Shown here: positions 16,582 through 48,532 of the stretch, piece by piece | Layout of the letters: each line of letters opens with the position of its first letter | Numbering within the stretch: the first letter of the stretch is position 1 | From: Marispirochaeta aestuarii | GTDB lineage: Bacteria > Spirochaetota > Spirochaetia > JC444 > Marispirochaetaceae | Assembly (NCBI RefSeq): GCF_002087085.1 | Contig: NZ_MWQY01000013.1 | Span: 62,001-126,000, forward strand | DNA: 64,000 nt | Direction: 5' to 3' | The notes under the pieces: model-generated | Told to the model about the DNA's origin: nothing | The model's database searches: none | Seen by the model: only the letters and a program-made list of their open reading frames with translations | Translations under genes and position numbers: made by a program

Positions 16582-18681
16582 TCAGAAGCTGACCCTCGTT
16601 TCGATTGAAACTGCAAAGTCCGCCTCCTTGTTTCCAGCCTCATCCTCGCTCACGAAGTTGGTCACCACTGCGGCGATCTGCAGGTTCGGGGCGAAGGAGT
16701 AGACCAATTCTCCGAAAAGGGCGGTCCGCTCGTCAAAAAGGCTGTTGCTTTCGATTCCGTCCACAAAACCGACGGTGTCCATTCCCAGGGAAGCGCTTAC
16801 CGGGATAAAGGGTATCCGGGGAACCGTCGCCATAAGGTGGAACAGGTCCGCCGTATCGTCGAATCCCTCATCGTCCCAGGCCCAGCGGTAGCCGGCTTCA
16901 AGCATCAGCAGGTTTTCAAGCTCGAATCCCGCCTGGCCATAGATCCCCCGGGTAACCTCCTGCAGTGAGGAGGAGAGGGGTATAAGCTCACCAAGGTCCC
17001 GGGCATACTGTTCCCGCTGTCTCTCGTAGGTGGGACCGTAGAAACCATGGGCAAAAAGTCCCTTGTTGTACTGGTACTCCAGGCGGTAGTTCAGTATGGA
17101 CAGATTACCGAAGATGCCGGAAGCCCAGCCGTAGTTCTGCAGCCGCTCAAGAAGATTGTCCTCGGAATCGTCATAGATAAAATCGGACTGCCATCCCGCG
17201 GAAACTGTTCCAAAGCTTCCCGTGTAATCCTCCCGGTAGTAGGGAAGCATGGTGCCGATGTCGGCAAAACCGACCAGGGAGAAGTTGTCCCGTTCCATAA
17301 GGGGGAACTCCGTATCCAGGGCGGTATGCAGAAAGAGGGGATCCCCCGCCTTGTCGTCCAGATCAGCTGCCGGGGCGATATCTGTCACCGAGGAGATGCC
17401 GAAACCCAGGGGAAGAGTCCGTCCCAGAGGGCGATAGCCGATGCGGCCTCCCATGATCTCCGGTTCTGCCAGATCGTTGAAGACCGATTCGATGGTCCAT
17501 TTATCGGCGTTGAATCCGGTGTTCAGACCAACCCTGCGAATGGCGGGAAAGTCGGTGTCATTGGCAAAACGGTTTATGATGATGCCGTGGCCGAGGGTCA
17601 CATTGTTGACGTTTCCGGCCTTCAGGAAGAAGGGGTCCCGGTTGTCGCCGTATTCAATGTAACGGATTTTCAGTACCAGGTCCTTCAGGGCGTCCCGGGC
17701 GGCATCGGCACTGTTGTCCTGGTCCGTACCGAAGGACCATTCGTAGTTGTCGTCCGGTTTGTACCAGTCTTCGGGATCGAAAAGGTCGGTATTGTAAATG
17801 ATAGGCAGGTACAGACCAAGTTTGAAATCCCCGATGTTGAATGCGGGCTGCAGAATGAATTTCGAGAAGGTGAGCCCGTCGATGGTGACCGTACCGATCT
17901 CCATTCCGAGATGCTCCGAAAGGTAGCGCATGAAGGCGCTCTCTTCGGCGGGTTCACTGATCTCCGGTTCGGGTTCGGGCTCTGCAGCAGGTTCTGAATC
18001 GCTGCCGGTCTCGACGGCGGGGGGCTGATACCCCGGTACTTCCGCCGGCACAAGGGCTTCAAACTGCAGGTCCCGGTAGAGGGCCGCGAAGTTCTCGGTG
18101 CTCAAGGCAAGGGCCTCAAAGGAAGGTGCCAGGGCGTCGGCAAACTGCCCGGCTCCCAGTCTGAGGGATTCTCCGCTTGTGAGGCTGGTATAGTCAATCT
18201 CTCCTTCAAAGACAAAGGCGCTGTCAGAGGCGGAAGGTATAACCTCGAGGCCGAAGTCGGTACCCCGGATACCCGCGACTGCCGAGGGAGTCTGGATGGA
18301 GTAGTTGTTGCGCTTGAAAAGGCCGAATTTCGCAGCGATGGCCCGCAGTTTGCCGCCGAAAAGGGTAAACTCGTTGGCGGACTGTTCATCCTTCTGCAGA
18401 CTCTCTATTACAAACTCGGTATTGCTTGAGAGGCGAATGATGGAACCATTGGGATCAAGACGGATCTCTGCGGCGGTCCGGCCGGTCTTTATCCGGTCAC
18501 CGGGCATAAGATCCATGCCGTAGAAGATTTCCTCTATGCGGTTGCCGTCTATGTCAAAGACCTGGATCTCGTACTCATCTCCGAAATATTCCAGTACCGC
18601 TGTCGGTTCCTCCGTTTCCTGGGGAAACATGACAAGAGGCAAGAGGAGCATTATTGATGCAGCAAGCAGCAGATTCTTCAT
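16582..18681 (-). CDS. FecR-domain protein fused to an outer-membrane beta-barrel
   Basis: This 699-residue protein has a signal peptide (residues 1-20). Residues 40-160 form a FecR-type domain: GDRIKTGRTAAEIRLDPNGSIIRL, NEFTLFGGKLRA, SIQTPSAVAGIRGTDF. A Pro/Glu-rich linker spans about 220-250. The remaining 440 residues are amphipathic strands with many Gly and aromatic residues, ending RVSF with a terminal Phe, as expected of an outer-membrane barrel. The barrel is clearly related to its upstream neighbour: both contain RY-G, LG-GIIINRFAN / LGNGFIMGGYAN and RPL-GT-LPL. GGAGG precedes the ATG. The function is unknown. FecR domains usually sense or bind periplasmic ligands. Confidence 0.8.
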   Translation of the reverse strand: MKNLLLAASIMLLLPLVMFPQETEEPTAVLEYFGDEYEIQVFDIDGNRIEEIFYGMDLMPGDRIKTGRTAAEIRLDPNGSIIRLSSNTEFVIESLQKDEQSANEFTLFGGKLRAIAAKFGLFKRNNYSIQTPSAVAGIRGTDFGLEVIPSASDSAFVFEGEIDYTSLTSGESLRLGAGQFADALAPSFEALALSTENFAALYRDLQFEALVPAEVPGYQPPAVETGSDSEPAAEPEPEPEISEPAEESAFMRYLSEHLGMEIGTVTIDGLTFSKFILQPAFNIGDFKLGLYLPIIYNTDLFDPEDWYKPDDNYEWSFGTDQDNSADAARDALKDLVLKIRYIEYGDNRDPFFLKAGNVNNVTLGHGIIINRFANDTDFPAIRRVGLNTGFNADKWTIESVFNDLAEPEIMGGRIGYRPLGRTLPLGFGISSVTDIAPAADLDDKAGDPLFLHTALDTEFPLMERDNFSLVGFADIGTMLPYYREDYTGSFGTVSAGWQSDFIYDDSEDNLLERLQNYGWASGIFGNLSILNYRLEYQYNKGLFAHGFYGPTYERQREQYARDLGELIPLSSSLQEVTRGIYGQAGFELENLLMLEAGYRWAWDDEGFDDTADLFHLMATVPRIPFIPVSASLGMDTVGFVDGIESNSLFDERTALFGELVYSFAPNLQIAAVVTNFVSEDEAGNKEADFAVSIETRVSF

Positions 18682-18691
18682 ACCGTCCTCC

Positions 18692-20035
18692 TTAGAACGA
18701 AAAGTCCACCGAGGTGGTCAGGGTCGCGGTGGTAATCCAGGGATCCTCTCCGGCTGCAGCCGAAAGCGGGTTGTGACGCAGGGTATATCCCAGGGTTATC
18801 AGGGCATTTCCCGTCTTGTAGTTCAGGTCCGCTCCAAGCACGGTGTTTTCCGGCCTGGAGAAGTCGTCCAGCCCCTTGATGTAACGTTTATTGTAGCTCA
18901 GGTCAAAGTAGATCCCCGGCAGAAGGCCCTCGCCGATGGAGAGGCTGGCATTGACCTGGGGGTACTCGATATCCTGGTCGGGTTCGCCGAAGCCGCCCTC
19001 CACACTGGTGAGAAAAACCACTGTATCCTGCAGGAAGGAAAAACCGAGGCTTCCGTACCATCCGGCGTAGGCTGGAATATCGATATCGCCGTTGTACACT
19101 GCGTATTTCTCTTCCCGGTAAAGATCGTACTGCCCGTCAAAGTAGACGGGAACAAAGTTCTCTCCCAGAAAACGGAGCTGGGCACCGTACAGGATGTACC
19201 GAATGAGCCGGCCGCCGGCCCCGACCATACCCCCGTAGGCCTCGTCCTGGAAAACCAGGTCCCCGAAGGCCGCGAGACTTACTGTCGGTTTGTCCAGGAT
19301 AGGCTGTCGCAGGTCCACCCCGAACATCTGTACCATGTCCGGCTCTCCGGAGATAAAATCGTATTGGGCATCGGGAATCCTGTCTGCTGCAAAGGTTGTC
19401 CCCAGCTGAAGCTCGGGAAGCAGGGGCAGGGAGGTCCCGGCCAGGGGGCGGGCGTAAATCCGGGCGCCGATTACATCCGCCAGGGCAAGGTTCCCGACGA
19501 AGGTTTCAAGCCCCACATAGGGAAAACCGAACAGCCCCCCGTCCACATCCAGGCTCAGCCCTATAATCCTGGTGTCGGGCAGAAACTGGGTATTCGCATA
19601 TCCCCCCATGATAAAGCCGTTCCCCAGAGTCCCGTCCTCGATGGAACCCAGTTTGGCGTAAAAATCGTCCCCCTTCTGTCCGTAGCGGACATAACTGAAT
19701 ATGGGCAGATATTTTTCGAGAACATTTTCATCGTCATCCAGGACCCAGTCTTCCTCCCGGATTTCGCCGCCGCTGTCGGTAAAGCGGAAATGGAGGGGAA
19801 TCCAGAGCCCAAGGCCCAGCTTGCCGTAGGAGAAATCGGGTTTCAGCACCAGACGCTGATAGGCCACAGACTCGCCGTCTTCCTGAAAACTGACCGCTCC
19901 CAGGTCGATCCCGAGGCCGAAATCAAAGGAGGGCTCCGAATCAGGAGATTCCGTTTCCTGGGCTGTCAGGAAAGTAGCGGCTCCAAAAAGTGTTATGATG
20001 GCAATTATACGTTTCAGTCTGCTGGAAATTATCAT
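18692..20035 (-). CDS. outer-membrane beta-barrel protein, paralogue of the FecR-barrel
   Basis: The 447-residue protein has a signal peptide ending near TAQETE and then a strand-rich chain ending DFSF with terminal Phe, typical of a spirochaete outer-membrane barrel. It aligns with the barrel half of the next gene through the stretch FSYVRYGQKGDDFYAKLGS, GNGFIMGGYAN, IGARIYARPLAGTSLPLLPELQLG. AAAGGAGG stands six bases before the ATG, and a good promoter lies 50 bases upstream. It is followed after ten bases by the FecR-barrel gene. It may be a porin or a structural partner; nothing in it shows substrate specificity. Confidence 0.78.
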   Translation of the reverse strand: MIISSRLKRIIAIITLFGAATFLTAQETESPDSEPSFDFGLGIDLGAVSFQEDGESVAYQRLVLKPDFSYGKLGLGLWIPLHFRFTDSGGEIREEDWVLDDDENVLEKYLPIFSYVRYGQKGDDFYAKLGSIEDGTLGNGFIMGGYANTQFLPDTRIIGLSLDVDGGLFGFPYVGLETFVGNLALADVIGARIYARPLAGTSLPLLPELQLGTTFAADRIPDAQYDFISGEPDMVQMFGVDLRQPILDKPTVSLAAFGDLVFQDEAYGGMVGAGGRLIRYILYGAQLRFLGENFVPVYFDGQYDLYREEKYAVYNGDIDIPAYAGWYGSLGFSFLQDTVVFLTSVEGGFGEPDQDIEYPQVNASLSIGEGLLPGIYFDLSYNKRYIKGLDDFSRPENTVLGADLNYKTGNALITLGYTLRHNPLSAAAGEDPWITTATLTTSVDFSF

Positions 20036-20161: not shown

Positions 20162-23100
20162 TCAGAAGCTGAATTCTCCCACAACACCCGTCTCCAGGGC
20201 ATAATAGGTCAGGTTGTCGCTGTTGCTTCCGCTGATTGGGGTATGCCTGAACCCGAAGGCCAGGTAGACCTCGATGCTGCCCTGTCCTCCGAAGGTAATG
20301 CCCGTGGCGTGTTTGATGCTCATGGTCCTTGACCAGGTTTCCCCTTCCACGGGGCTGAGTTCCCAGTCCAGCGTTTCCCGATGCCGCAGGTGTTTGTCCG
20401 CCGGGGGCATGTTGAGGCCTCCCAGGGGAAGGGAAAAATTGAAAGCCATAGCCTGAAACCAGGTTGCCTTGAGGCTTCCGCTCCAGGCCGGGCGATCATC
20501 CTCATTGGAAAAACTGAGATTATTGCTGAGGGCATACTCGGTCAGCCCCGGCCCGAAGAGCATTATCTCGTTCCGGTAGCGCCATGAAAAGTCAAGGTCG
20601 TCGTCATAGTGGGTGGAAAGCTGGAAGCTGCTGGAAAACTGGTCCGATTCGTACCAGCGGAAAAAAGGGTAGGCCCCGAGGCTGCCGAAAAGATTGATAG
20701 CCGTCATGCGGGCTGTAGTATCCGTCCCAAGAGAGCTTGTCACCGAATCATAACTGCGCTCATAGCTGCGGCTGACCTCGAAAGCCAGATAGGAGGGGAC
20801 CAGCAGATCGATGAGGCGGGAAGAAAACCGCCGTTCCAGGGATATCCCCGTTACGGGTGAGTAGTCGGCGGCATCAAAGCCTGCGGTACCGTCCCGGAAG
20901 GCTCCGAGGGCGGAATCCCGGGTGATCTCGACTACCGGAGGAGCGGAGAAAAAATAGTCCTGGTCTCCCGCCGTATCTGCCCATGACGAAGCATCTGTGG
21001 AAAACCCCTTCTCTTTTTGGGTATCTCCGGGACTGAATTCACCGCTGAAATCCCGGCGGTAATACAGGGAATAATCGAGGCTGTTGAAATTCTCGGGGAA
21101 TAGGGCTCCGCTGAAATTCAGTTCCAGCCCCATGCTGTCCAGCTCCTTGCGGGGATCTGTTCCATAACGCGAGTTCTCTGCTGAAGGAAGAATTCTTACC
21201 GAATAGTCGTCTCCCCATCGGGTTTCCATGGGAAGAAAAAGGCCGGAGGAGCGGTCCGTGGGCAAAAGCTCTTCCTGGTAGATCAGCAGCCTGGTCCCCT
21301 GGATCCATCCGTCGCCGTAGAAGGAGTGGAAATCCACCCCCGGGTCGCCAAGGGTGTTGGTAAGGTTCAGGAGGGGGCTGAAGGAAAAACCTTCGAAGGG
21401 GTTGATCTCCGCCTCTGTTTTCCATGTCTGGCTGAGGGTATCGTCATTGTAGGCGGCCCGGGAAGTAAACCCGGCGCTTGCCCCGGTAAGGTTCAGCTTC
21501 AGGCTGTTCTGTTTGGTAAAACTGAAGTCCTCCTGTACCGGATCATGGGTGTAGCTGTCTTCCATCTGAAGGGGACCGTCTTCCGGAATGGTGATGGTAT
21601 GACTTCCTGAGACCTGGGGTCCGGAGTCATCCTCCCTGATGTTGAGACTGAGGCGGGCCCGGGAATAGAGGCTGGAGAAAGCGGCCTCGTTATAGACCCG
21701 GTAGACCCGGCCGTCGGCGGGGGTAAATCCGGAAGCGAAGCCCGAAGAGGCAACCCGGGAGTTTCCGGACCAGCTGAAATTACCAAAAAGGGGAAATCCC
21801 TTTACCCTCAGAATATCTCCATCCTTTGAATAGCGGGCGGAGCTCAGGACGCCGAGATCACTGGATAGGACGGGATCGCTTATATGGAGCTCGTCGAGGA
21901 AAACAACACCGCCGCCAGCGTTCGCGATACTGAAGGTCGCCTGTCTGGCGATGATGTTTGTACTGCCCGAGACAACAGCCGAGGAGATGCTTCCTCCCTC
22001 GACGGAGACTTTGCCGCTTTTCATGTTGACACTGACTTCGCTCCAGGAAGAGGACTGTTCAATATCCGCCAGTTCCACCCGGTACTCTCCCTCATCCCCC
22101 TTCAGGGTGAGGCTCAGATCGGCTGAAATCGGGCTGTGAAGACGGTAGTAAAAGCGCAGGGTTTCGTAGGAGTCCAGGGGGACCTCCGGGACCGGGCCGA
22201 CGGCAGCTCCGTCCGTTCCAGTCCATTCCAGGCGCAGTACCTTCTGGTCCTCGTCGCCGTCATTGAAACGGTCTTCCACCAGGTCGTAGGCGGCGTACAG
22301 GGGGACAGCGGGAGCCTCAGCGGGGTCGAGGTCGTATTCCGAAACCTCCCCGGTTTCGGATGCTGAGTTGCCTGGGACAAAGGAACTTCCGTGGAAGCGA
22401 AGCTCCCCGACAAGCAGTCTGCCGCTGGTAACGGCGACTGCATCAAGAAGAATCTGTACGGCCCGGGTTGCAGCCAGCTGTGCCCGGTCGGTCCCGGAGA
22501 GGGGTATGTAGACCTCCCGCCAGGGCCCGGCCGGCAGGAGACTGACGGAGTGTTCGAGAACCTGGGTATCCGTCTCCCGGTTGAGAAGTCCGTTACCGTC
22601 GGCGTCCTCGCTCTCCTCCGTCCCGTTGCCGAACTCCCCCCGAGGACCTGCGCCTCCACCGCCAACCGAGAGGGTGTAACCCGTGGGAGCATGGGTGTAG
22701 GCAAAGCCGGAATCATAGGGACCGTTCTCTTCATCCAGGTTCCTGTCGCCGTCAAGGTCCTCCGAGACCGATCCGGCCCGGAGAGTCATGTTGACAGCGG
22801 TCTCATCTCCGATGAGCCTGTACTTGAAGGAGATGCCCGCCGCCCCCGAAAGATCCAGACTGCCCCCGGGGGCGCTTATCTGGGCTCCCACCCATTCGGT
22901 GTTGTCCAGATCGTAATCAATTACGGCGACGATGCCTTCGATGTCGTCGTCTTCCGCCTTGGCAACGGAAGGACCGATGGGATTCCCGTCGGCAAAGGCA
23001 TAGACCTGTTCTCCCGGGGGAGACCAGTCGTACTCCCGTAAAGTGCTGCCGCCGGTGGAGAGGTACTGGTAGTAGTCGGTATAGGGCATCTCTCCCAGGT

Positions 23101-24769
23101 CGGCCCGGTCGAAGGCTGTACTCGGTGCCGCGGGAAAGAGGGTGTGGCCGCTGATACCGAAATCCACGGTTCCCCGGTTCATGCCTCCCAGGCGCAGGTA
23201 GCCCCGGGTGTCGTGGGTCCCCACGGAAAGGCCGCCGTTTACGCTGATACCCCAGTCCTCTGCCTGGTAGTCCGCCCCTGCGGCAGCAAGGATGCTGCCC
23301 GGGGCCTCGGCATACTCTTCACTGTAACCCTGGGAGTCCATGTTCCAGCGGACACCGATGTCTCCCCGGAGGCTCAGCTCGGGAATGTTCTTCCAGGGCT
23401 GAAATGTATTGGTGGAGACGAAAAGCAGGTCAGCTCCGGAAGCCCCGTCGTCTGGAAGTTCATAGCTGACCTCCACGGTATCGCTTTCGAACACGGGAAA
23501 GGGAAAGTCAAGAGTGCCGTCATCCAGGCGGGTAAAACGAGTCTCGTTTCGCCCGTTGATGGTGACGCGCACCGATCCCTGTATCGCATTCCTGGGAACA
23601 CTGATGGAGGCGGTACCGATAACCCGTTCGTAGAGCAGTATGTAGGGCACCAGGGGATCGTAGCCGGCGGCTCCCGGGTAAATTTGAGGCAGCAGGCCTT
23701 CCAGAGGTTTTTTTTCGCTTGCTCCCTGCCGGAGGGTGATGATACCGGCCCCGTACTCCCCGGTAAAGACCGCCACAGCCTCGAGCTCCCCGGAGGGGCG
23801 CAGTTCCACCTTCACAGTTTTACCGGGACGCGCATTGGGGGCGGGGTAGACCGCAAGGAACTCCAGATCCGAGGGGCTTCCGTCCTCGTAGAGGAGCAGG
23901 AAGGGAATCCCCCCGACAGTCAGATCTGCAGTATAGGGTGCGGATCCTCCCTGTTCGTAGTATATCAGAACCCGCCCTGCCGGGGCCTCAGAGAGGCTCA
24001 CGAAGCCCTGCTCCGCAGAGACCGCCGCCTCAAAGTCGGAGGCCCGCGTGTAGCGTCTTCCGTCACCGTCCACGAGCTCACCGTTCCTGTCTTCCAGATA
24101 GACAGCGGCGTTTTCAATGTCCTCGTGGTTCAGCAGAAAGTAGCGGCCCCGGATAAAATCCGCCGGATTCAGATACACCTCTTCTGTCTCCGAGGTCCCT
24201 GCGTAGGTCCTGGTTACCCTGGAGGTCCGCTGGTAGCGAAGGAGGAGTTCGTGGCGGCTGCGTTCGGTCTCCAGGGTGGCAGAGGCCCCCAGGGCGCCTT
24301 CGGGGTGTTCACCCGGATCGATAAGAGGCGTCGAATCGATGGCGGTACCGGTATTTCCCAGGCGGACCCGCCGGACAAGCTCTCCCTCCCGTCCTTCGTA
24401 GCCCAGCAGGTAGGTGTTGAAGGAGGAGTCTCCGGTTATGGTGCTTTCAAAGAAATAACGCTCCATGAGCCAGAGGGAGAGGGTCAGGTCCGGCAGCTGG
24501 TTGAACATGAAGCCGGAACTGAAGCCCGGTACGGAGGGGGTCTCGGGAGATGGAGTTCCCCAGATGCCTCCGAGGCTGGTGGAGATGTTCCAGCTTCCCG
24601 CCAGAAAAAGATCGACGTCGGCATCTCCCAGACTGGTGGAAAAGAGCGCCTCCGGGGCTTCATCCTCCGGCAGCGGGACGGAGTCTTCGCCGACGGCAAC
24701 CCGGGCGGCGGCAAAGGTGAGGAGAAGTACCAGCATCAGTGTCGTCTTGCTAAGATCTATTCCCTGCAT
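20162..24769 (-). CDS. giant SprA-like outer-membrane protein
   Basis: This is a protein of about 1535 residues. The ATG at 24769 gives MQGIDLSKTTLMLVLLLTFAAA, a good signal peptide; a longer frame from a GTG at 24799 is possible. The whole chain is beta-rich and ends EFSF with C-terminal Phe. Several stretches follow the pattern of SprA, the type IX secretion translocon of Bacteroidota: the YEGREGELVRRVRLGNTG region (about 120-140), YFLLNHEDIENAAVYL (about 215), IDYDLDNTEWVGAQIS (about 615) and RAGSVSEDLDGDRN (about 665). SprA itself is about 2400 residues, so this is a shorter form. I infer a very large outer-membrane barrel with a possible translocation role. Two further barrel genes follow on the same strand. 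Confidence 0.6.
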   Translation of the reverse strand: MQGIDLSKTTLMLVLLLTFAAARVAVGEDSVPLPEDEAPEALFSTSLGDADVDLFLAGSWNISTSLGGIWGTPSPETPSVPGFSSGFMFNQLPDLTLSLWLMERYFFESTITGDSSFNTYLLGYEGREGELVRRVRLGNTGTAIDSTPLIDPGEHPEGALGASATLETERSRHELLLRYQRTSRVTRTYAGTSETEEVYLNPADFIRGRYFLLNHEDIENAAVYLEDRNGELVDGDGRRYTRASDFEAAVSAEQGFVSLSEAPAGRVLIYYEQGGSAPYTADLTVGGIPFLLLYEDGSPSDLEFLAVYPAPNARPGKTVKVELRPSGELEAVAVFTGEYGAGIITLRQGASEKKPLEGLLPQIYPGAAGYDPLVPYILLYERVIGTASISVPRNAIQGSVRVTINGRNETRFTRLDDGTLDFPFPVFESDTVEVSYELPDDGASGADLLFVSTNTFQPWKNIPELSLRGDIGVRWNMDSQGYSEEYAEAPGSILAAAGADYQAEDWGISVNGGLSVGTHDTRGYLRLGGMNRGTVDFGISGHTLFPAAPSTAFDRADLGEMPYTDYYQYLSTGGSTLREYDWSPPGEQVYAFADGNPIGPSVAKAEDDDIEGIVAVIDYDLDNTEWVGAQISAPGGSLDLSGAAGISFKYRLIGDETAVNMTLRAGSVSEDLDGDRNLDEENGPYDSGFAYTHAPTGYTLSVGGGGAGPRGEFGNGTEESEDADGNGLLNRETDTQVLEHSVSLLPAGPWREVYIPLSGTDRAQLAATRAVQILLDAVAVTSGRLLVGELRFHGSSFVPGNSASETGEVSEYDLDPAEAPAVPLYAAYDLVEDRFNDGDEDQKVLRLEWTGTDGAAVGPVPEVPLDSYETLRFYYRLHSPISADLSLTLKGDEGEYRVELADIEQSSSWSEVSVNMKSGKVSVEGGSISSAVVSGSTNIIARQATFSIANAGGGVVFLDELHISDPVLSSDLGVLSSARYSKDGDILRVKGFPLFGNFSWSGNSRVASSGFASGFTPADGRVYRVYNEAAFSSLYSRARLSLNIREDDSGPQVSGSHTITIPEDGPLQMEDSYTHDPVQEDFSFTKQNSLKLNLTGASAGFTSRAAYNDDTLSQTWKTEAEINPFEGFSFSPLLNLTNTLGDPGVDFHSFYGDGWIQGTRLLIYQEELLPTDRSSGLFLPMETRWGDDYSVRILPSAENSRYGTDPRKELDSMGLELNFSGALFPENFNSLDYSLYYRRDFSGEFSPGDTQKEKGFSTDASSWADTAGDQDYFFSAPPVVEITRDSALGAFRDGTAGFDAADYSPVTGISLERRFSSRLIDLLVPSYLAFEVSRSYERSYDSVTSSLGTDTTARMTAINLFGSLGAYPFFRWYESDQFSSSFQLSTHYDDDLDFSWRYRNEIMLFGPGLTEYALSNNLSFSNEDDRPAWSGSLKATWFQAMAFNFSLPLGGLNMPPADKHLRHRETLDWELSPVEGETWSRTMSIKHATGITFGGQGSIEVYLAFGFRHTPISGSNSDNLTYYALETGVVGEFSF

Positions 24770-24829
24770 TACTCTATAGATGCAAACAATACCACACACC
24801 GACCGTTTTGTAGAGGATTTACGAATAGA

Positions 24830-39084: not shown

Positions 39085-40335
39085 TCAGCTGTTCTCGTCG
39101 TCCAGCAGGGTATTGATACCCGTGAGTTCTTCCTGGAGTCGAAGGCTGGTAAGGACGGTATCAAGGTTCTCCGACGCCGGGGTAAAATCCGGATCAAGTT
39201 CCAGAACAGCCTGCCAGTGGCGGACCGCAAGCCGAAGGTCGCCCCGGGCATAGGCTTCAAGCCCGGCTATGTACTGCTCTTCCACCATCTGCTGACGGGC
39301 ATACCGTCCCCGGTCGCCCAGATCCATGGACGCTACCACACTAATCCGGTCCAGGGGAGCGGACACCTGGGTATCGAGACCCAGGGTATAGTTGATATTG
39401 AAGGCCATATCGCTGGTCAGAAGTTCAGTTCCCAGGGAGAACCTCGGGTTGCCTCCGCGATAATGAAATCCGCTCTGCAGGGAGAAGAAATTGGTTACCG
39501 CCAGGTCCATGCCCGTGGCAATGTACCAGTTTTCCGCAGGAACATCAGGCTGCAGACTGAAGGGGTAATTGAAATCCGTCGTCAGAGTCAGGGGTCTGAA
39601 GGGTGAATAGGCTATACCCAGGGACGCTTCTGTGGGAAGCGCTTCTCCGTCCGTACTGATTCCCAGATTACGTGCCACAAGACCGACTGCAAAGTTACTC
39701 TCCCGGGCAACATAGGGTTTCATAAAATTAAAGCGGGTCAGAAGTCCGATATCGGCCAGTAATCCGAAGGCTGACTGGCCCGGTTCAATTACCTCAGGGA
39801 TATGACGATAGGCTGTTTTTAAATTTGCCCCCAGGGCGAGACCTTCATAATCGTAGCTGGAAAAGAAGTTATAGGAGATATTCGCCGTAGCCAGGGTCTC
39901 GGAGTAGTAGATGCTGGCCTGGGTGTCTCCCCAGTCATTGTATTCGGTAAAGGGTACGTACAGGAACTTTCCACCGAAACCGTAGCCCAGATTCTCGTTG
40001 CGCATGGTAAAGACGGCGCTGTCGATGGATGTATCGGCGATCCACGCATTATGGGCCAGGGCTATCTGGGTTCTGTCCAGCAGAGCACTGGCCGCCGGAT
40101 TGGCTTCGAGGTAGGAAAAATCATTTGCCAGTGCGGTAAAGGCAGTTCCCATGGCTTCGTAGCGTCCGCCTATGGGAATCTGGAGGATGGGAAAGACCGT
40201 CAGGCCGGTGTTGGGGTCTGCAAAGGATTCGGAAAAGTCAAAATAACTGTCGAAAAAACCTTCTCCCGAAGCGGAAAAAGGTACAGTCAGAAGGAGGAGA
40301 AATATTGTAGCCCTCAGCATGATTGTTCTCTGCAT
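39085..40335 (-). CDS. UPF0164/PorV-like outer-membrane protein with TPR-like tail
   Basis: The protein has 416 residues from the ATG at 40335, chosen because it begins at a signal peptide (MQRTIMLRATIFLLLLTVPFSASG) and AAAGG stands nine bases ahead. Residues 40-80 (TGLTVFPILQIPIGGRYEAMGTAFTALANDFSYLEANPAAS) match the N-terminal motif shared by UPF0164 proteins of Treponema and PorV of Bacteroidota. The chain continues as a FadL-like barrel. The last 60 residues are a helical repeat resembling a TPR (YIAGLEAYARGDLRLAVRHWQAVLELDP). It is probably an outer-membrane barrel with a periplasmic tail. PorV binds SprA in type IX secretion. Treponemal members have been proposed to import fatty acids. 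Confidence 0.78.
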   Translation of the reverse strand: MQRTIMLRATIFLLLLTVPFSASGEGFFDSYFDFSESFADPNTGLTVFPILQIPIGGRYEAMGTAFTALANDFSYLEANPAASALLDRTQIALAHNAWIADTSIDSAVFTMRNENLGYGFGGKFLYVPFTEYNDWGDTQASIYYSETLATANISYNFFSSYDYEGLALGANLKTAYRHIPEVIEPGQSAFGLLADIGLLTRFNFMKPYVARESNFAVGLVARNLGISTDGEALPTEASLGIAYSPFRPLTLTTDFNYPFSLQPDVPAENWYIATGMDLAVTNFFSLQSGFHYRGGNPRFSLGTELLTSDMAFNINYTLGLDTQVSAPLDRISVVASMDLGDRGRYARQQMVEEQYIAGLEAYARGDLRLAVRHWQAVLELDPDFTPASENLDTVLTSLRLQEELTGINTLLDDENS

Positions 40336-40511
40336 AGCAGCTGCCTTTTGCGAATATACCACCAATTCCGGGAGAATACTATATTTTCGGCACTTTGCAG
40401 TCCCGGGTCAAGTCAATCTCCCCTCAAGAACCCAATCGGCCTTCATATTGGGAATCTGGGTATACTGCCCCTCCAAATATGCCGATAATGTGGTACATTC
40501 AGTACGAAGAA

Positions 40512-43500: not shown

Positions 43501-43643
43501 AGTACCAGTCTGCTCTGAAGGCCTATCAGCAGGGCAATTTTGTCCAGGCGAAACTTATTGTTGACCAGCTTATCCAAAAAGGCCAGAATGCCCGTAATCC
43601 CAGGCTGCTGGATCTGAGGAGAAGGATTGAATCGCGCTTGTGA
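40512..43643 (+). CDS. large exported TPR/helical repeat protein
   Basis: The protein has about 1043 residues from the ATG at 40512 (GAAGAA just upstream). The signal peptide is LRRGLLHILLVVLLLMGAGPLHA. The mature part is almost wholly helical. It starts with TPR-like EAREAYEARDYNRAILLTAEVMKEYPDY, which returns near the C-terminus as ARSAFNAGDYQRSLALAKALQAIRPGYPGLESLI and QYQSALKAYQQGNFVQAKLIVDQLIQKG, with long coiled-coil-like stretches in between. It lies three bases ahead of the SpoIIE receptor, its stop overlapping that start (TGATGA). I infer a periplasmic scaffold or sensor partner of the receptor. Confidence 0.72.
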   Translation: MVIGSRLRRGLLHILLVVLLLMGAGPLHAAGKPEQDPLLEAREAYEARDYNRAILLTAEVMKEYPDYFDEAQSLIRAIRGAKIRYNNTFADLIDLYQDALRNRDDAGLSESYTIIKDLEELDPYPNEETAEGLVRAREATGNVYNRIRYTNIMDQALEQIRSGEFFQAVTTYMGGFNLALDIFRDKNYGEEPEAEADRLRTQAAVLGEEFTTYQDALAAAGSFIDQLSPDSTLDQLRVWAEDFSAEYENLSDLRWRIQGVMRGLEVLRLLILNEYAEDTEDEIYHLAYLILLHRGRSAVEEELGVNEGILGAVDGRWDKGLESASAAFREILSLLNEQAHTLYTQQRFSESLGVFQRLASVAGIVEELAQLWRAQIAPAPEPGTPEPDYRRLLESGEAPDYLKYYYDLETYARILGENAVDSVELAGLGAVFREQAEILSGTADVDLDTVAESRDFFDQRAGILGPLAVSLQERKSIPLLEDEYRELNVRRLGEHEERIAMLDTLYRNSSEEFMLIYTERRERELEARLASLRELETAGDSSLAGEEILFQGDSFLARYPDRALENYSLLNEGAENLLEDNQGFLAELRELPQWLQNRESIAASIAGVSDREETVSGLLLRSEQKSEEAVELIRIARQSRLDGERRYAEAQARVRSRQFNVNNPNAVENAISDSRDFFLASLQQQYDQLLDHRTDAIPGNSDNYDIQSLLSELAQAKRDYFLPQRDAALAEARQLIRQQDFEQASIVLNRAEDYHRQLDSEDYPEIVRLQEFVDRAINTSSAWYISKTDPLYAEMSQLLNLARRDYLTALERVRGGQRSGVETLLASAEEKLAAVQNTFPQNLEVGILQLQIQLLRSGDPAEQNRIIAEKFDQARSAFNAGDYQRSLALAKALQAIRPGYPGLESLIVEGEIATGQRVREPDPADVRAAEALYTEANSIWQNRIQDQYPAALESIQEAIARYTPFNPPNRYLDLKQQLEIRVDTSTAAILSAADQLQYQSALKAYQQGNFVQAKLIVDQLIQKGQNARNPRLLDLRRRIESRL

Positions 43644-46600
43644 TGAATAGAAGATTTCCGTCCATACCTGCAACGATAATCCTCGCTGCTCTCGTACTCC
43701 TTCTGCCCCAGGTACAGCTTCTTGCCCAGGAACGGATCTACTGGGATGACTCCCGCGTCCTGGGACTTGAGAGTCCTCGTTTTCCCCAGGCAGGTTCCTC
43801 GTATCAGGGCATTGTGGTTATGGCCCACGAGTACGAGTACAGCGGACAGGACCAGGGTAGGGCCTACATCTCCACGGCGTACAGCAGCGACAGTCTCCAG
43901 TGGGAGACCCACTCCAGGGTACTGGGACCTTTTTCCTTCAGCGGCGATGAGTCTCCCATAGCCTCCCTTGCGGTCACTGCCGGAGGCGAGGTCTACCTGG
44001 CTGTGGCGGAAGATGAATCGACCATCGGAATCTACCAGTCCCGGAATCAGGGCGGAAGTTTTTCGAGAATAAGCAGCATTACCGCACCGGTTTCCGCGAT
44101 TGTGGCCCCCCGACTCTTTCTCAATTCCCGGGGCGAGTTTGTCCTTTTTGTTTCCCGGGACGTCGGGACCGGTGCAGGCCTGGGCAGCTACCTGGGAATC
44201 TTCTATACCAGCTCCGAAAACGGCTCACAATGGGAAGCCTTTCGCCCCCTGACCACGGGAAATACCCTCCGGGAGACCTATCTGCCTTTTCTTGCCGGAT
44301 ACGGAGGGCGGGATTATGTCGTTTTTCAGGCCTTCAAGACCGGCGGTCCCGGGGGAAATCCCCCGTCGAGTTATCAGCTCTATATGGCAAGCAGTTTCGA
44401 CGGAGGCAGGAGCTGGGGCCAACCTGAACTGATTACCGATTTCCCTGAACCGGAAAACCTGGGAGAGGAAGCGGGGTGGGAATATTATGATAACCAGAGG
44501 CCCGCTATCCTTGTCGACGGCGAAAGGACCTTTGTGTCCTGGGAACGCCGTTACGCCCGTTCCCGGACACGAAATATCTACCTCGCCGAGCTGAACGGTT
44601 CGGGGAATACTGAAAACGTGGTGAGGATACGAAGCGACCGGGACAGCATATCTCCCAGGATGGTAAAGGCCGGAGACCGCTATTTTGTCAGCTGGTATGA
44701 GGGGAGTGAACAGGATATGACCCTGCGCCTGGCGGAGGGGCGCAAGATTCCCAACGTGGGAATTGACTGGTACTATCAGGAAGGGGCGGGAACGGAGTAT
44801 CTCTTTGCAGATGACCGGCCGGACAGTTCCACCTTCGCGGTTCCCCTGGTTTTCCGCCAGCGTCTGCACCTTGTATGGGAGAACGATACCTATCGGGGAA
44901 CGGAACTTGCGGATTCCCGTCTGATCTATCGGGGACCGGATATCTACACCGCGTCGCCCAGTGTCCGGGGGGTGAACTTTATCGGCGGCGAGCCTGTTTC
45001 CAGAGACAACTTTACCATCGCCTGGAGTGAGCCCCGGGATTCCTCCGGAATTGCAGGATATAACTATATCTTCAGCCGGTCGGAAACAGAACGTCCCGGG
45101 CGTCGGCTGTCTCACTTCCGGGATGAAAATCTATCGACTACCCGGTCCCTGGAGGAAGACGGCCGCTGGTATTTTCATATTATCGCCCAGGATTATGCGG
45201 GCAACTGGTCGGAACCGTCATCACTGCTGATACAGCGGGATACGACAGCTCCTGATACACCTGTGTTTCTTCCTCCGGAAACCGACAGTTCCGGTTTTCT
45301 TCTGTCCAATACCCGGACCATTGAATGGCGTGCTTCTCCCCAGGAGGACACTGCCGGCTACACCTACACATATACCCTGCTCGACCCGGCAGGACGTGCA
45401 GTGGATCCGGAGCAGGTGCGCCCGGCGCTGCCGCCGCGACGCATTGTTACCACTTCTCCGGAGGCCTCCTTTTTTAACCGCGACAACGGTACCTGGATGC
45501 TTTCCGTTGCGGCGGTGGATCGAGTCGGCAATATCAGCGAGCCCGCGGCTCTTGTATTCCGTCTGAACAAGTACATCCCCATAACCCTTATTAATGAGAT
45601 TGAAGCTGAGCGGGACGAGGTGGGACGCTCCATCCTGACCATACGAGGCCGGGGTTTTACCGCGGACGGACAGATCGAACGGATCATCCTGGACCGGGAC
45701 GCCAATCCTCCCTACGATTATATCTACACCCTGGAGGGCGGATCCTATAAGCTCAGCGGGAACCGTCTGATCGAGGATTTCGTCGTTGAGGACATTGATG
45801 AGGGGCTTTACGGTATAGGGCTTGATCACTCACGACGGGGTATAAAGTGGTCTGATCAATCCCTCTACTTTGAACCCACCGGGGTGGTCAAGTTCGGCGA
45901 TTTTACCTATACGCCGCCGTCGAGATTTACTCTGTTTGCCTGGGATTATTTCGGGATGTCCGTTAATGCCCTGGTCACTTTGCTCATTTTGACGGGGCTT
46001 GCCGTTGCGCTGGGGCTGACCATTTTCATGCTCCGGGGAGTCCTGGCGGAGAACGCGCGTATTCAGAGGGACATCGAGACAATTGTATCCGGCAGACTCC
46101 TGACCGGCCCCGAATACAGGAAGAGGATAGTAGAGATGAAGAGAAAGGGTCTTGGCCTGAGAATAAAATTTGTGCTGCTTATAACGGTACTCATTCTGAT
46201 CGTTGTGATGATGGTAGCCGTTTCTCTTGGCTATTACATGATAGAAAGCCGTCAGCGGACCCTGGCACAGGGGCTGGAGGAGAGGGCCTCGCTGCTTCTT
46301 GAGAGTCTTGCGGTGGGAGCCCGGGAACCGATTGACAGCAATGACCAGGAGAGCATGTTTTCCCTGGTCGGCCAGGTAGAAGCCATGGCCGATGCCACGG
46401 GAGTCATCATTACCGGCCGATCCGTCTCCGATCCCGCCGGTCAGATTCATGCTCTCTGGGCGGCGTCCCATCCCGAGGAACTCCTGGAATCCCTGAGCGG
46501 TCAGATTCGCATCGACTACCGGGAGAAGGATGCAGCCTCGGAGGCTCCCCGGACCTTTGCGCTCATCGATGCTGACGAGCTTGAATCCTACCGGGACCGT

Positions 46601-48532
46601 TACGATGTTCTTGTAACCCCTTTTTACGGGCGTTCCGTCTATACCGACAATCTCAGCTCCGAGGAGGAGCGAATCGCCGGGCAGGTGGACCGGGAACTCT
46701 CCTCGGAAATTCTGAGTATCGAGGAGGACATCCGGGCAATGCAGCAGGAGCAGCTGGTGCTTGAATCCCTGAACCGTGGTCTTTCCGTCAGTGCCGACCA
46801 GCGACGGTTTATTCAGGACCGCTTTCCCTCCTTTGAGGATCCCGAGGCGCGTAATCTGCGTCTTGCCCAGATAAATACCGATGTCGTTCAGTTTAACCGG
46901 GCCAGAACGGCGCTTATCCGGGAGACGGGCAATATTCTCAACAGTGTGCCCGCTTTTAATCCCGAAGAGTTCAACACCTCCACCGGAGAGTATACCTTCT
47001 ACCGGCCCATAGTCGGGCCCCGGCAGGTTCCGGACCAGGGCATAGGTGCAGAGCAGGACAGCGGTTACTTCTATCGCGGAATGGTCCGGCTGACTGTATC
47101 CACCGAGAATATTGTACGGCAGATAGTTGATTCCCAGAGCACCCTTATAACGATAACCGGCGTCGTCGCCCTGGTTTCTGCTTTGATCGGTGTTATAGGA
47201 GCTCTCATTCTGGCTACGATTATCATTACACCCATCAACCGTCTGGTTCAGGGGGTTGAGATTATACGGGATACTGTGGACAAGGAGCAGCTGGAGAATC
47301 ACGTGGTGGACACCAGAACTCGGGATGAACTGTCGGGGCTCGCCCAGACCATCAACGAGATGACCCGGGGACTCGTGGAAGCCGCGAAAGCGAACAAGGA
47401 ACTCACTCTGGGAAAGGAGATCCAGAAGATGTTTCTTCCCCTGGTTACCGATCAGAACGGTCGCAAATTGACCACCGCCTCCTTTGAAGATGATTTTATC
47501 CAGGTCTACGGATACTACGAGGGGGCTGACGCCCTTTCCGGTGACTATTTTGACCATATCGACCTGAAAAACGGGTATCACGCCTTCATAAAATGCGACG
47601 TCGCCGGTCACGGAGCCTCGGCATCGCTGATTATGGTCGAGGTGGCCACGATCTTTACCAGTTACTTCAAACGCTATGTGGGACAGAAACCGCAGCTTCA
47701 GATATCCGAACTGGTGAGCTCCATTAACGAACTGCTGGAGGAACGTCAGTTCCGGGGGAAATTTGCCGCCCTTATTGTGGGTCTCCTTGAAGCATCAAGC
47801 GGAAAAATCCATCTGTGTCACGCGGGAGACAACCTGGTACACATCTACGAAGAAAAGAAACACGGACTCTCTCTGCTCAAGCTGCCGGAAACCCCGGCGG
47901 CGGGGGTATTCGGCAGAGACCTTATAGATATGCGCGGGGGATACCCCAAGGTGGTTCATCAGCTCAACAAGGGTGATACGGTTCTCTTTTTTACTGACGG
48001 CATCGAAGAGAGTCATCACCGACTCCGCGGAGAGAACCTCGAGGTGAGGAGTTACCAGGATTTTCCAGAAAAGATGCGGGCGGAGGATGCACGGCTGGTG
48101 GATCAGGGCTTCAAGGAAATCAAACCGGAAGAGCCCTACGAGGAGTTTGATCTGAAACGCGTAAACATGGTAATAGAGGCGGCCATGAACCGGGAAAGCT
48201 TCGAACTGAAACGTCGCATGGATGCGGTGATCAAGGAGCCCCTCGTCTTCGATTTCTCCAGTCTGGAGGGGTCCACCGAAGAGATGGTAACCGCCCTGAT
48301 AGCGGTAGAGAAGGTCTATCGGCTGGTACCGGATCCGGCAGCCACTGAACGCGACCGGGTCCGGGTTGACCGGAAGATCGACACCTTTCTGCAAAAACAC
48401 TTTTCCGCCTACTATCGCTATTTTCGTAATCCCCTGGAGGATAGTTCCTTTCCGGAATATGTCTGGTTCTCTCACCTGAAGGAAGATGAGCAGGACGATG
48501 ACCTCACGATAATTGCGGTGAAGCGCAAGTGA
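43640..48532 (+). CDS. receptor with beta-propeller, HAMP and SpoIIE-type PP2C phosphatase domains
   Basis: The protein has 1630 residues. Domains in order: signal/anchor (10-30); a sialidase-like beta-propeller with WDDSRVLGLESPRFPQ-type repeats (30-430); Fn3/Ig-like domains near 440-640; membrane helix near 773-800; short cytoplasmic link; helix near 842-868; extracytoplasmic sensor (870-1165); helix near 1167-1196; HAMP; and a PP2C phosphatase with GADALSGDYFDH (about 1300), KCDVAGHGASASLIM and FTDGIEES. Such receptors dephosphorylate anti-sigma antagonists of the RsbV/SpoIIAA type and so control a sigma factor. No antagonist or anti-sigma gene is in the window. It is coupled to the TPR gene upstream and to a small unknown gene downstream. 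Confidence 0.85.
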   Translation: MMNRRFPSIPATIILAALVLLLPQVQLLAQERIYWDDSRVLGLESPRFPQAGSSYQGIVVMAHEYEYSGQDQGRAYISTAYSSDSLQWETHSRVLGPFSFSGDESPIASLAVTAGGEVYLAVAEDESTIGIYQSRNQGGSFSRISSITAPVSAIVAPRLFLNSRGEFVLFVSRDVGTGAGLGSYLGIFYTSSENGSQWEAFRPLTTGNTLRETYLPFLAGYGGRDYVVFQAFKTGGPGGNPPSSYQLYMASSFDGGRSWGQPELITDFPEPENLGEEAGWEYYDNQRPAILVDGERTFVSWERRYARSRTRNIYLAELNGSGNTENVVRIRSDRDSISPRMVKAGDRYFVSWYEGSEQDMTLRLAEGRKIPNVGIDWYYQEGAGTEYLFADDRPDSSTFAVPLVFRQRLHLVWENDTYRGTELADSRLIYRGPDIYTASPSVRGVNFIGGEPVSRDNFTIAWSEPRDSSGIAGYNYIFSRSETERPGRRLSHFRDENLSTTRSLEEDGRWYFHIIAQDYAGNWSEPSSLLIQRDTTAPDTPVFLPPETDSSGFLLSNTRTIEWRASPQEDTAGYTYTYTLLDPAGRAVDPEQVRPALPPRRIVTTSPEASFFNRDNGTWMLSVAAVDRVGNISEPAALVFRLNKYIPITLINEIEAERDEVGRSILTIRGRGFTADGQIERIILDRDANPPYDYIYTLEGGSYKLSGNRLIEDFVVEDIDEGLYGIGLDHSRRGIKWSDQSLYFEPTGVVKFGDFTYTPPSRFTLFAWDYFGMSVNALVTLLILTGLAVALGLTIFMLRGVLAENARIQRDIETIVSGRLLTGPEYRKRIVEMKRKGLGLRIKFVLLITVLILIVVMMVAVSLGYYMIESRQRTLAQGLEERASLLLESLAVGAREPIDSNDQESMFSLVGQVEAMADATGVIITGRSVSDPAGQIHALWAASHPEELLESLSGQIRIDYREKDAASEAPRTFALIDADELESYRDRYDVLVTPFYGRSVYTDNLSSEEERIAGQVDRELSSEILSIEEDIRAMQQEQLVLESLNRGLSVSADQRRFIQDRFPSFEDPEARNLRLAQINTDVVQFNRARTALIRETGNILNSVPAFNPEEFNTSTGEYTFYRPIVGPRQVPDQGIGAEQDSGYFYRGMVRLTVSTENIVRQIVDSQSTLITITGVVALVSALIGVIGALILATIIITPINRLVQGVEIIRDTVDKEQLENHVVDTRTRDELSGLAQTINEMTRGLVEAAKANKELTLGKEIQKMFLPLVTDQNGRKLTTASFEDDFIQVYGYYEGADALSGDYFDHIDLKNGYHAFIKCDVAGHGASASLIMVEVATIFTSYFKRYVGQKPQLQISELVSSINELLEERQFRGKFAALIVGLLEASSGKIHLCHAGDNLVHIYEEKKHGLSLLKLPETPAAGVFGRDLIDMRGGYPKVVHQLNKGDTVLFFTDGIEESHHRLRGENLEVRSYQDFPEKMRAEDARLVDQGFKEIKPEEPYEEFDLKRVNMVIEAAMNRESFELKRRMDAVIKEPLVFDFSSLEGSTEEMVTALIAVEKVYRLVPDPAATERDRVRVDRKIDTFLQKHFSAYYRYFRNPLEDSSFPEYVWFSHLKEDEQDDDLTIIAVKRK

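Follow-up and report, generated by a model that had tools for sequence, protein, structure and literature searches.

According to published accounts, the type IX secretion system (T9SS) and its translocon SprA are confined to the Bacteroidetes-Chlorobi-Fibrobacteres group (PMC12421860) or absent outside the FCB (Fibrobacteres, Chlorobi and Bacteroidetes) phyla (PMC11285876), and the survey of Abby et al. (2016) recorded it only in Bacteroidetes (PMC4793230). In the solved system, the C-terminal domains (CTDs) of the substrates bind to loops of PorV inserted into SprA (Sov) through a lateral opening, and the substrate is carried out by PorV; the N-terminal extension of Flavobacterium johnsoniae SprA binds SkpA and SprE of the powered extended translocon (PMC10994853). 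Here, we analyzed a gene for a SprA-like giant outer-membrane barrel protein from the spirochete Marispirochaeta aestuarii, encoded in a 64,000-nucleotide stretch of contig NZ_MWQY01000013.1 (positions 62,001 to 126,000; hereafter, the window). By analogy with the solved system, this protein is probably a reduced SprA homolog that serves as a protein-conducting channel of the outer membrane, with a PorV-like carrier and giant CTD-bearing cargo as its partners. The ensemble is best read as a reduced, apparently motor-less type-9-like translocon, rather than as a demonstrated T9SS. We found no report of a T9SS or of SprA in spirochetes in the open-access literature searched (subscription papers and preprints lay outside its scope); according to an earlier note on this DNA, no spirochete member is known to have been described.

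Results

The open reading frame (ORF) of the SprA-like gene runs from an ATG at 24769 to a stop at 20162 on the minus strand and encodes 1535 residues ending in EFSF; an alternative in-frame GTG at 24799 would lengthen the protein by 10 residues. A hydrophobic N-terminal run, LMLVLLLTFAAARVAVGE, judged by eye, suggests a signal peptide (approximately residues 1-27; 24689..24769, minus strand), so that the chain has the length, N-terminus and C-terminus that the earlier note gave it. The gene is single-copy: 37 of 60 relatives (single-protein search) and 118 of the 198 genomes of the class Spirochaetia (profile search) have one ortholog each, which argues that it is under selection. The genome carrying the window (G000) comprises 4.2 Mb in 78 contigs.

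Taken alone, the sequence did not reveal its relatives. An initial contig scan with the protein as the lone query gave no match, the best match in NCBIfam was SprA (TIGR04189) at a non-significant E=0.11, and searches of Pfam, which the earlier note had proposed, and of the Protein Data Bank (PDB) returned nothing. A profile of the class scored 3.1 bits against a SprA fragment, no better than shuffled sequences, which reached 3.6 bits; class-family profiles, alone or mixed (A1, A5), retrieved from the PDB only a CBM11 jelly-roll and no SprA. A 31-row alignment of the family was discarded as too diverse. Nevertheless, TIGR04189 was matched by 6 of 28 class members (best E=3e-5), and in other classes of Spirochaetota it matched in 58 of 149 genomes, where the homologs are approximately 1900-2000 residues long and reach E=2.5e-29 when genomes are searched and 1.8e-52 when whole proteins are. 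The class profile matched all 20 long homologs tested (E from 1e-21 to 1e-102), and hhalign aligned the class family with the long phylum family over its full length (probability 100, E=9e-87, 1478 columns). The profile of the long Spirochaetota homologs, in turn, matched chain residues 163-920 of F. johnsoniae SprA (6h3j) with E=2.9e-23, plus two additional weak stretches in order. The earlier note had singled out four stretches that follow SprA; all four are present in the protein and, through the family profile, LLGYEGREGELVRRVRLGN aligns with KLAYTPSEDDIIQKVEVGN and LRAGSVSEDLDGDRN with FNLGEISEDVLKDGR of the solved SprA in the expected register, although the single sequence and the class profile remain below significance. 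The order of modules, from the LxYxGxEDxxxQxVxxGN stretch through to the GxxxED region, is common to the SprA-like protein and SprA/Sov (F. johnsoniae 6h3i, 6h3j, 8gl6; TIGR04189).

The predicted structure led to the same family. Residues 29-1200 were modeled with AlphaFold (pLDDT 79, pTM 0.59) and compared with the PDB using Foldseek; the top four matches were all SprA (E=4e-36 to 9e-25), the closest structural relative, whereas the next, unrelated match had E=1.6e-6, so that the SprA structures lead by approximately 18 orders of magnitude in E-value. Over the residues covered, the model contains many barrel strands; SprA itself is a single barrel of 36 strands. Judged from profiles and the modeled fold, the gene is a true distant relative of SprA, as the earlier note had suspected, with significance reached only through intermediate homologs and structure. 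It scores 9.6 bits against the equivalog cut-off of 200 bits for TIGR04189, a cut-off that no match in the 149 Spirochaetota genomes exceeded (one long homolog reached 165.5 bits). Thus, "SprA-like" is the correct label, and the protein is not a SprA equivalog.

The protein is also shorter than SprA (1535 versus 2403 residues), as had been noticed before. Homology to the N-terminal half of SprA covers approximately residues 42-560 (23090..24646, minus strand), a region that includes GYEGREGELVRRVRLGN, FLLNHEDIENAAVYL, NG-repeat modules and predicted barrel strands. It is followed by two predicted jelly-roll modules resembling carbohydrate-binding modules (CBM), with approximate bounds at residues 600-1010 (21740..22972, minus strand; CBM11 profile E=0.004, CBM structures among the Foldseek matches), which distinguish the protein from SprA and stand where SprA has part of its cap. 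The ortholog of a Treponema-like genus (f24, g25) is 1139 residues long, with the jelly-roll middle deleted, which indicates that this region is dispensable. The C-terminal barrel region (approximately residues 1010-1535; 20165..21742, minus strand), ending in EFSF, is covered by the model to residue 1200 only. Furthermore, the class profile begins to match the long homologs at approximately their residue 112, so that the long periplasmic N-terminal part of SprA is mostly missing from the SprA-like protein. The long homologs from Spirochaetota, Elusimicrobiota, Cloacimonadota and other lineages belong to the same family but, apart from their length, differ in that most lack the two barrel genes that adjoin the SprA-like gene (see below) and in some of their genomes CTD and PorV-family proteins number in the dozens. 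In the phylogenetic tree (unrooted, displayed midpoint-rooted), all Spirochaetia members formed one clade with a support of 1.0. A spirochete from outside the class (L090), which also has both barrel genes, was placed beside this clade, as descent within the phylum would give.

A candidate substrate carrier, the search for which the earlier note had suggested, is encoded 15 kb away. The ORF at 39085..40365 (minus strand; 426 residues) is a PorV/PorQ-family barrel of the UPF0164 type (PF03687, E=3e-55; PorQ, E=9e-13), which matched the PorV family profile NF033709 with E=5e-22 and 78.8 bits, below the cut-off of 90, and which differs from that family in having a C-terminal TPR. Co-occurrence was assessed in 78 genomes of the class, 47 with and 31 without the SprA-like gene, as determined by the class profile search with absence re-checked in a subset. 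UPF0164 was present in 46/47 genomes of the former set and 1/31 of the latter (Fisher p=2.7e-19). To allow for the dependence among genomes of one family, we repeated the comparison by family (22/23 versus 0/10, p=1e-7), which is a partial answer, as family counts are not fully independent events either. Moreover, within one family (f11), the SprA-like gene, UPF0164 and the CTD giant described below are all present in one genus and all absent from another. The lone genome with UPF0164 and no SprA-like gene (G111; 1.1 Mb) carries five UPF0164 copies and, judged from its size and from the number and positions of these copies, appears to be Treponema pallidum-like. By profile, UPF0164, to which the five FadL-like T. 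pallidum outer-membrane proteins belong, falls in the PorV/PorQ carrier family; UPF0164 proteins include syphilis vaccine candidates (TP0858; PMC11668736). The PorV-like gene is adjoined, in divergent orientation, by a gene for a 1082-residue protein without a Pfam match, which precedes one for a 1630-residue protein carrying HAMP and SpoIIE phosphatase domains (43640-48532), also divergent from the PorV-like gene.

Type IX-like sorting domains, likewise proposed as a search target, were found at the ends of giant proteins. A profile built from eight CTDs of spirochetes of other classes, run over the Spirochaetia, identified giant ORFs ending in a CTD, mostly approximately 1400-6900 residues long and as a rule a single one in each genome (E from 1e-9 to 1e-14). 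The genome carrying the window has one (CTD at G000:C6:208534-208740; L166:3532-11232), in an ORF of approximately 2570 residues that runs up to the end of the contig. This protein contains 0.6% lysine, and its homologs in other Spirochaetia are up to 6889 residues long. When the terminal 100 residues were taken in isolation, 6 of 6 tested giants passed the curated cut-off of 23 bits for the T9SS type A sorting domain, TIGR04183 (24.0-29.8 bits), with which they share a terminal Ig-like domain. In the cargo proteins, the C-terminal 100 residues are more conserved than the stretch ahead of them (mean identity 0.56, versus 0.32 for the preceding 200). The giants are mostly poor in lysine and cysteine and consist to approximately 57% of G, N, S, T, D and V, a composition as expected of large adhesins. 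Strong CTD proteins were present in 31/47 genomes with the SprA-like gene and in 0/31 without it (p=3e-10; family level, p=9e-5), and every single-contig genome in the sample fits this association. TIGR04183 matches in frames of 119-160 residues, for example in Brachyspira-like genomes, were not counted, being probable FlgD. Unlike systems with dozens of type A substrates, the class usually has one giant per genome. In some spirochetes from other classes, a long SprA homolog is accompanied by 18-51 proteins above or near the TIGR04183 threshold and by many PorV-family genes, several of them adjacent. Such genomes (G082 and G070; loci L147, L148 and L154), with dozens of CTD proteins, several adjoining PorV-family genes, probably encode larger type-9-like secretomes.

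The search for the T9SS motor gave a different result. In the 149 Spirochaetota genomes, GldM (PorM) had no match above the cut-off (best E=0.003), in a search run without a known T9SS bearer as a control and in which GldL, GldK, GldN, SprE and PorT were not sought; judged from this search, which lacked a positive control, the motor is likely absent. The PorU sortase had no full-length match in the same genomes and none above the cut-off, the matches being almost exclusively to the CTD part of PorU. Thus, with the SprA-like gene below the equivalog cut-off and no motor found, a T9SS is not demonstrated.

The neighborhood of the SprA-like gene is conserved in approximately 23 of 30 loci. One flank carries an HD-domain gene and DUF503 (PF04456, E=1e-25), and the other carries a 447-residue outer-membrane barrel (18692..20035, minus strand), a 699-residue protein combining a FecR domain (PF04773, E=3e-10) with a barrel (16582..18681, minus strand), and mutL. 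The two downstream barrel genes that the earlier note had seen are thus real and syntenic; of the outer-membrane cluster it had proposed, the synteny holds, but the barrels are the weaker partners. The 447-residue barrel occurs in 37/47 genomes with the SprA-like gene and 7/31 without it, a looser association than that of UPF0164, and the tight partner is the distant PorV-like gene, alongside the giant CTD proteins encoded in other parts of the genome. The fold of this barrel gave generic porin matches, the best being the alginate exporter AlgE (TM-score 0.4); with this fold and the looser co-occurrence, it was rejected as a PorV-like partner. The two barrels (16582-20035) are mutually related, with a weak link to Leptospira ImpL63 (NF047543), and both adjoin the SprA-like gene outside the class too (L090, L125). 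They may be later additions.

Discussion

SprA homology, a PorV-family protein and giant CTD proteins are all present in the class, and the three co-occur, which makes the route of the solved T9SS the best-supported model. By analogy with SprA, a secreted protein would enter the SprA-like channel on the periplasmic side. The UPF0164 barrel, sitting PorV-like against the flank of the channel, would bind the Ig-like sorting domain at the C-terminus of this cargo, which would be released to the cell surface. We infer that the substrate in this class is usually a single giant, lysine-poor surface protein per genome. Because GldM was not found and the periplasmic N-terminus of SprA is largely missing, we propose that the drive for export perhaps comes from extracellular folding of the giant cargo.

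Several observations weigh against this model. The genes for channel, carrier and cargo are not linked in the class, and no UPF0164 gene was found beside giant cargo genes in the loci read. The TM-scores of the model (1172 residues) against SprA are low, approximately 0.3, which we attribute to only part of the chain having been modeled. In the context of the whole protein, the cargo of M. aestuarii itself scores only 17.7 bits against TIGR04183, under the cut-off, and the CTD also matches FlgD Ig domains, in most cases no worse than it matches TIGR04183. The domain alone is therefore no proof of export, for which its terminal position, conservation and co-occurrence argue. Sixteen genomes with the SprA-like gene had no strong CTD match, all of them multi-contig assemblies (approximately 90-690 contigs); giant repetitive genes, often lost from such assemblies, may be missing from them. 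Finally, without a motor, the energy chain known from the T9SS cannot apply.

The SprA-like barrel might instead have been repurposed with the two adjacent barrels, for example to export lipids, polysaccharide or surface proteins of another kind. The conserved position of these neighbors, one of them with a FecR domain, the AlgE match and the resemblance of the jelly-roll modules to CBMs all speak for such a role, which we nonetheless consider unlikely, given that the adjacent barrels track the SprA-like gene less closely than the PorV-like gene does, that genomes without the SprA-like gene lack CTD giants, and that the AlgE match is generic, with many porins scoring about equally. Alternatively, the finding of channel, carrier and CTD together could reflect a full ordinary T9SS, the motor genes of which have diverged past the profiles used. 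We regard this as improbable in view of the GldM search (bearing in mind its missing Bacteroidota control and the unsearched GldL, GldK and GldN), the restriction of PorU matches almost entirely to its CTD, and the loss of most of the N-terminus that ties SprA to SkpA and SprE (PMC10994853). That three unrelated surface genes were merely kept in free-living spirochetes and lost from reduced genomes, as the small size (1-2 Mb) of many genomes without the SprA-like gene might suggest, is very hard to reconcile with the presence in that set of genomes of 2.8-5.7 Mb (G005, G006, G010, G011, G023, G032 and G051) and with the persistence of the pattern across families, within the limits of their independence, and inside f11.

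The SprA-like family extends beyond this class. SprA-like homologs were also found in assemblies labeled Elusimicrobia/Endomicrobia, Aerophobetes, Nitrospira, Eisenbacteria, Cloacimonadota and Krumholzibacteriia, indicating that the family is broader than its literature; the proteins at these loci (L128, L130 and L135-L146) are approximately 900-2300 residues long, some cut by contig ends, and the assembly labels are unchecked. For the Spirochaetia, we tentatively put forward a minimal motor-less type-9 pathway, composed of a channel, a carrier and a single giant CTD cargo and driven by folding, of which the five UPF0164 proteins of T. pallidum might be leftovers after loss of the channel. A channel, carrier and sorting signal in spirochetes without GldM would split the translocon from the motor in evolution, and the spirochete set would provide a small system for asking what the T9SS motor does. 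It would also suggest where the UPF0164 outer-membrane proteins came from in evolution.
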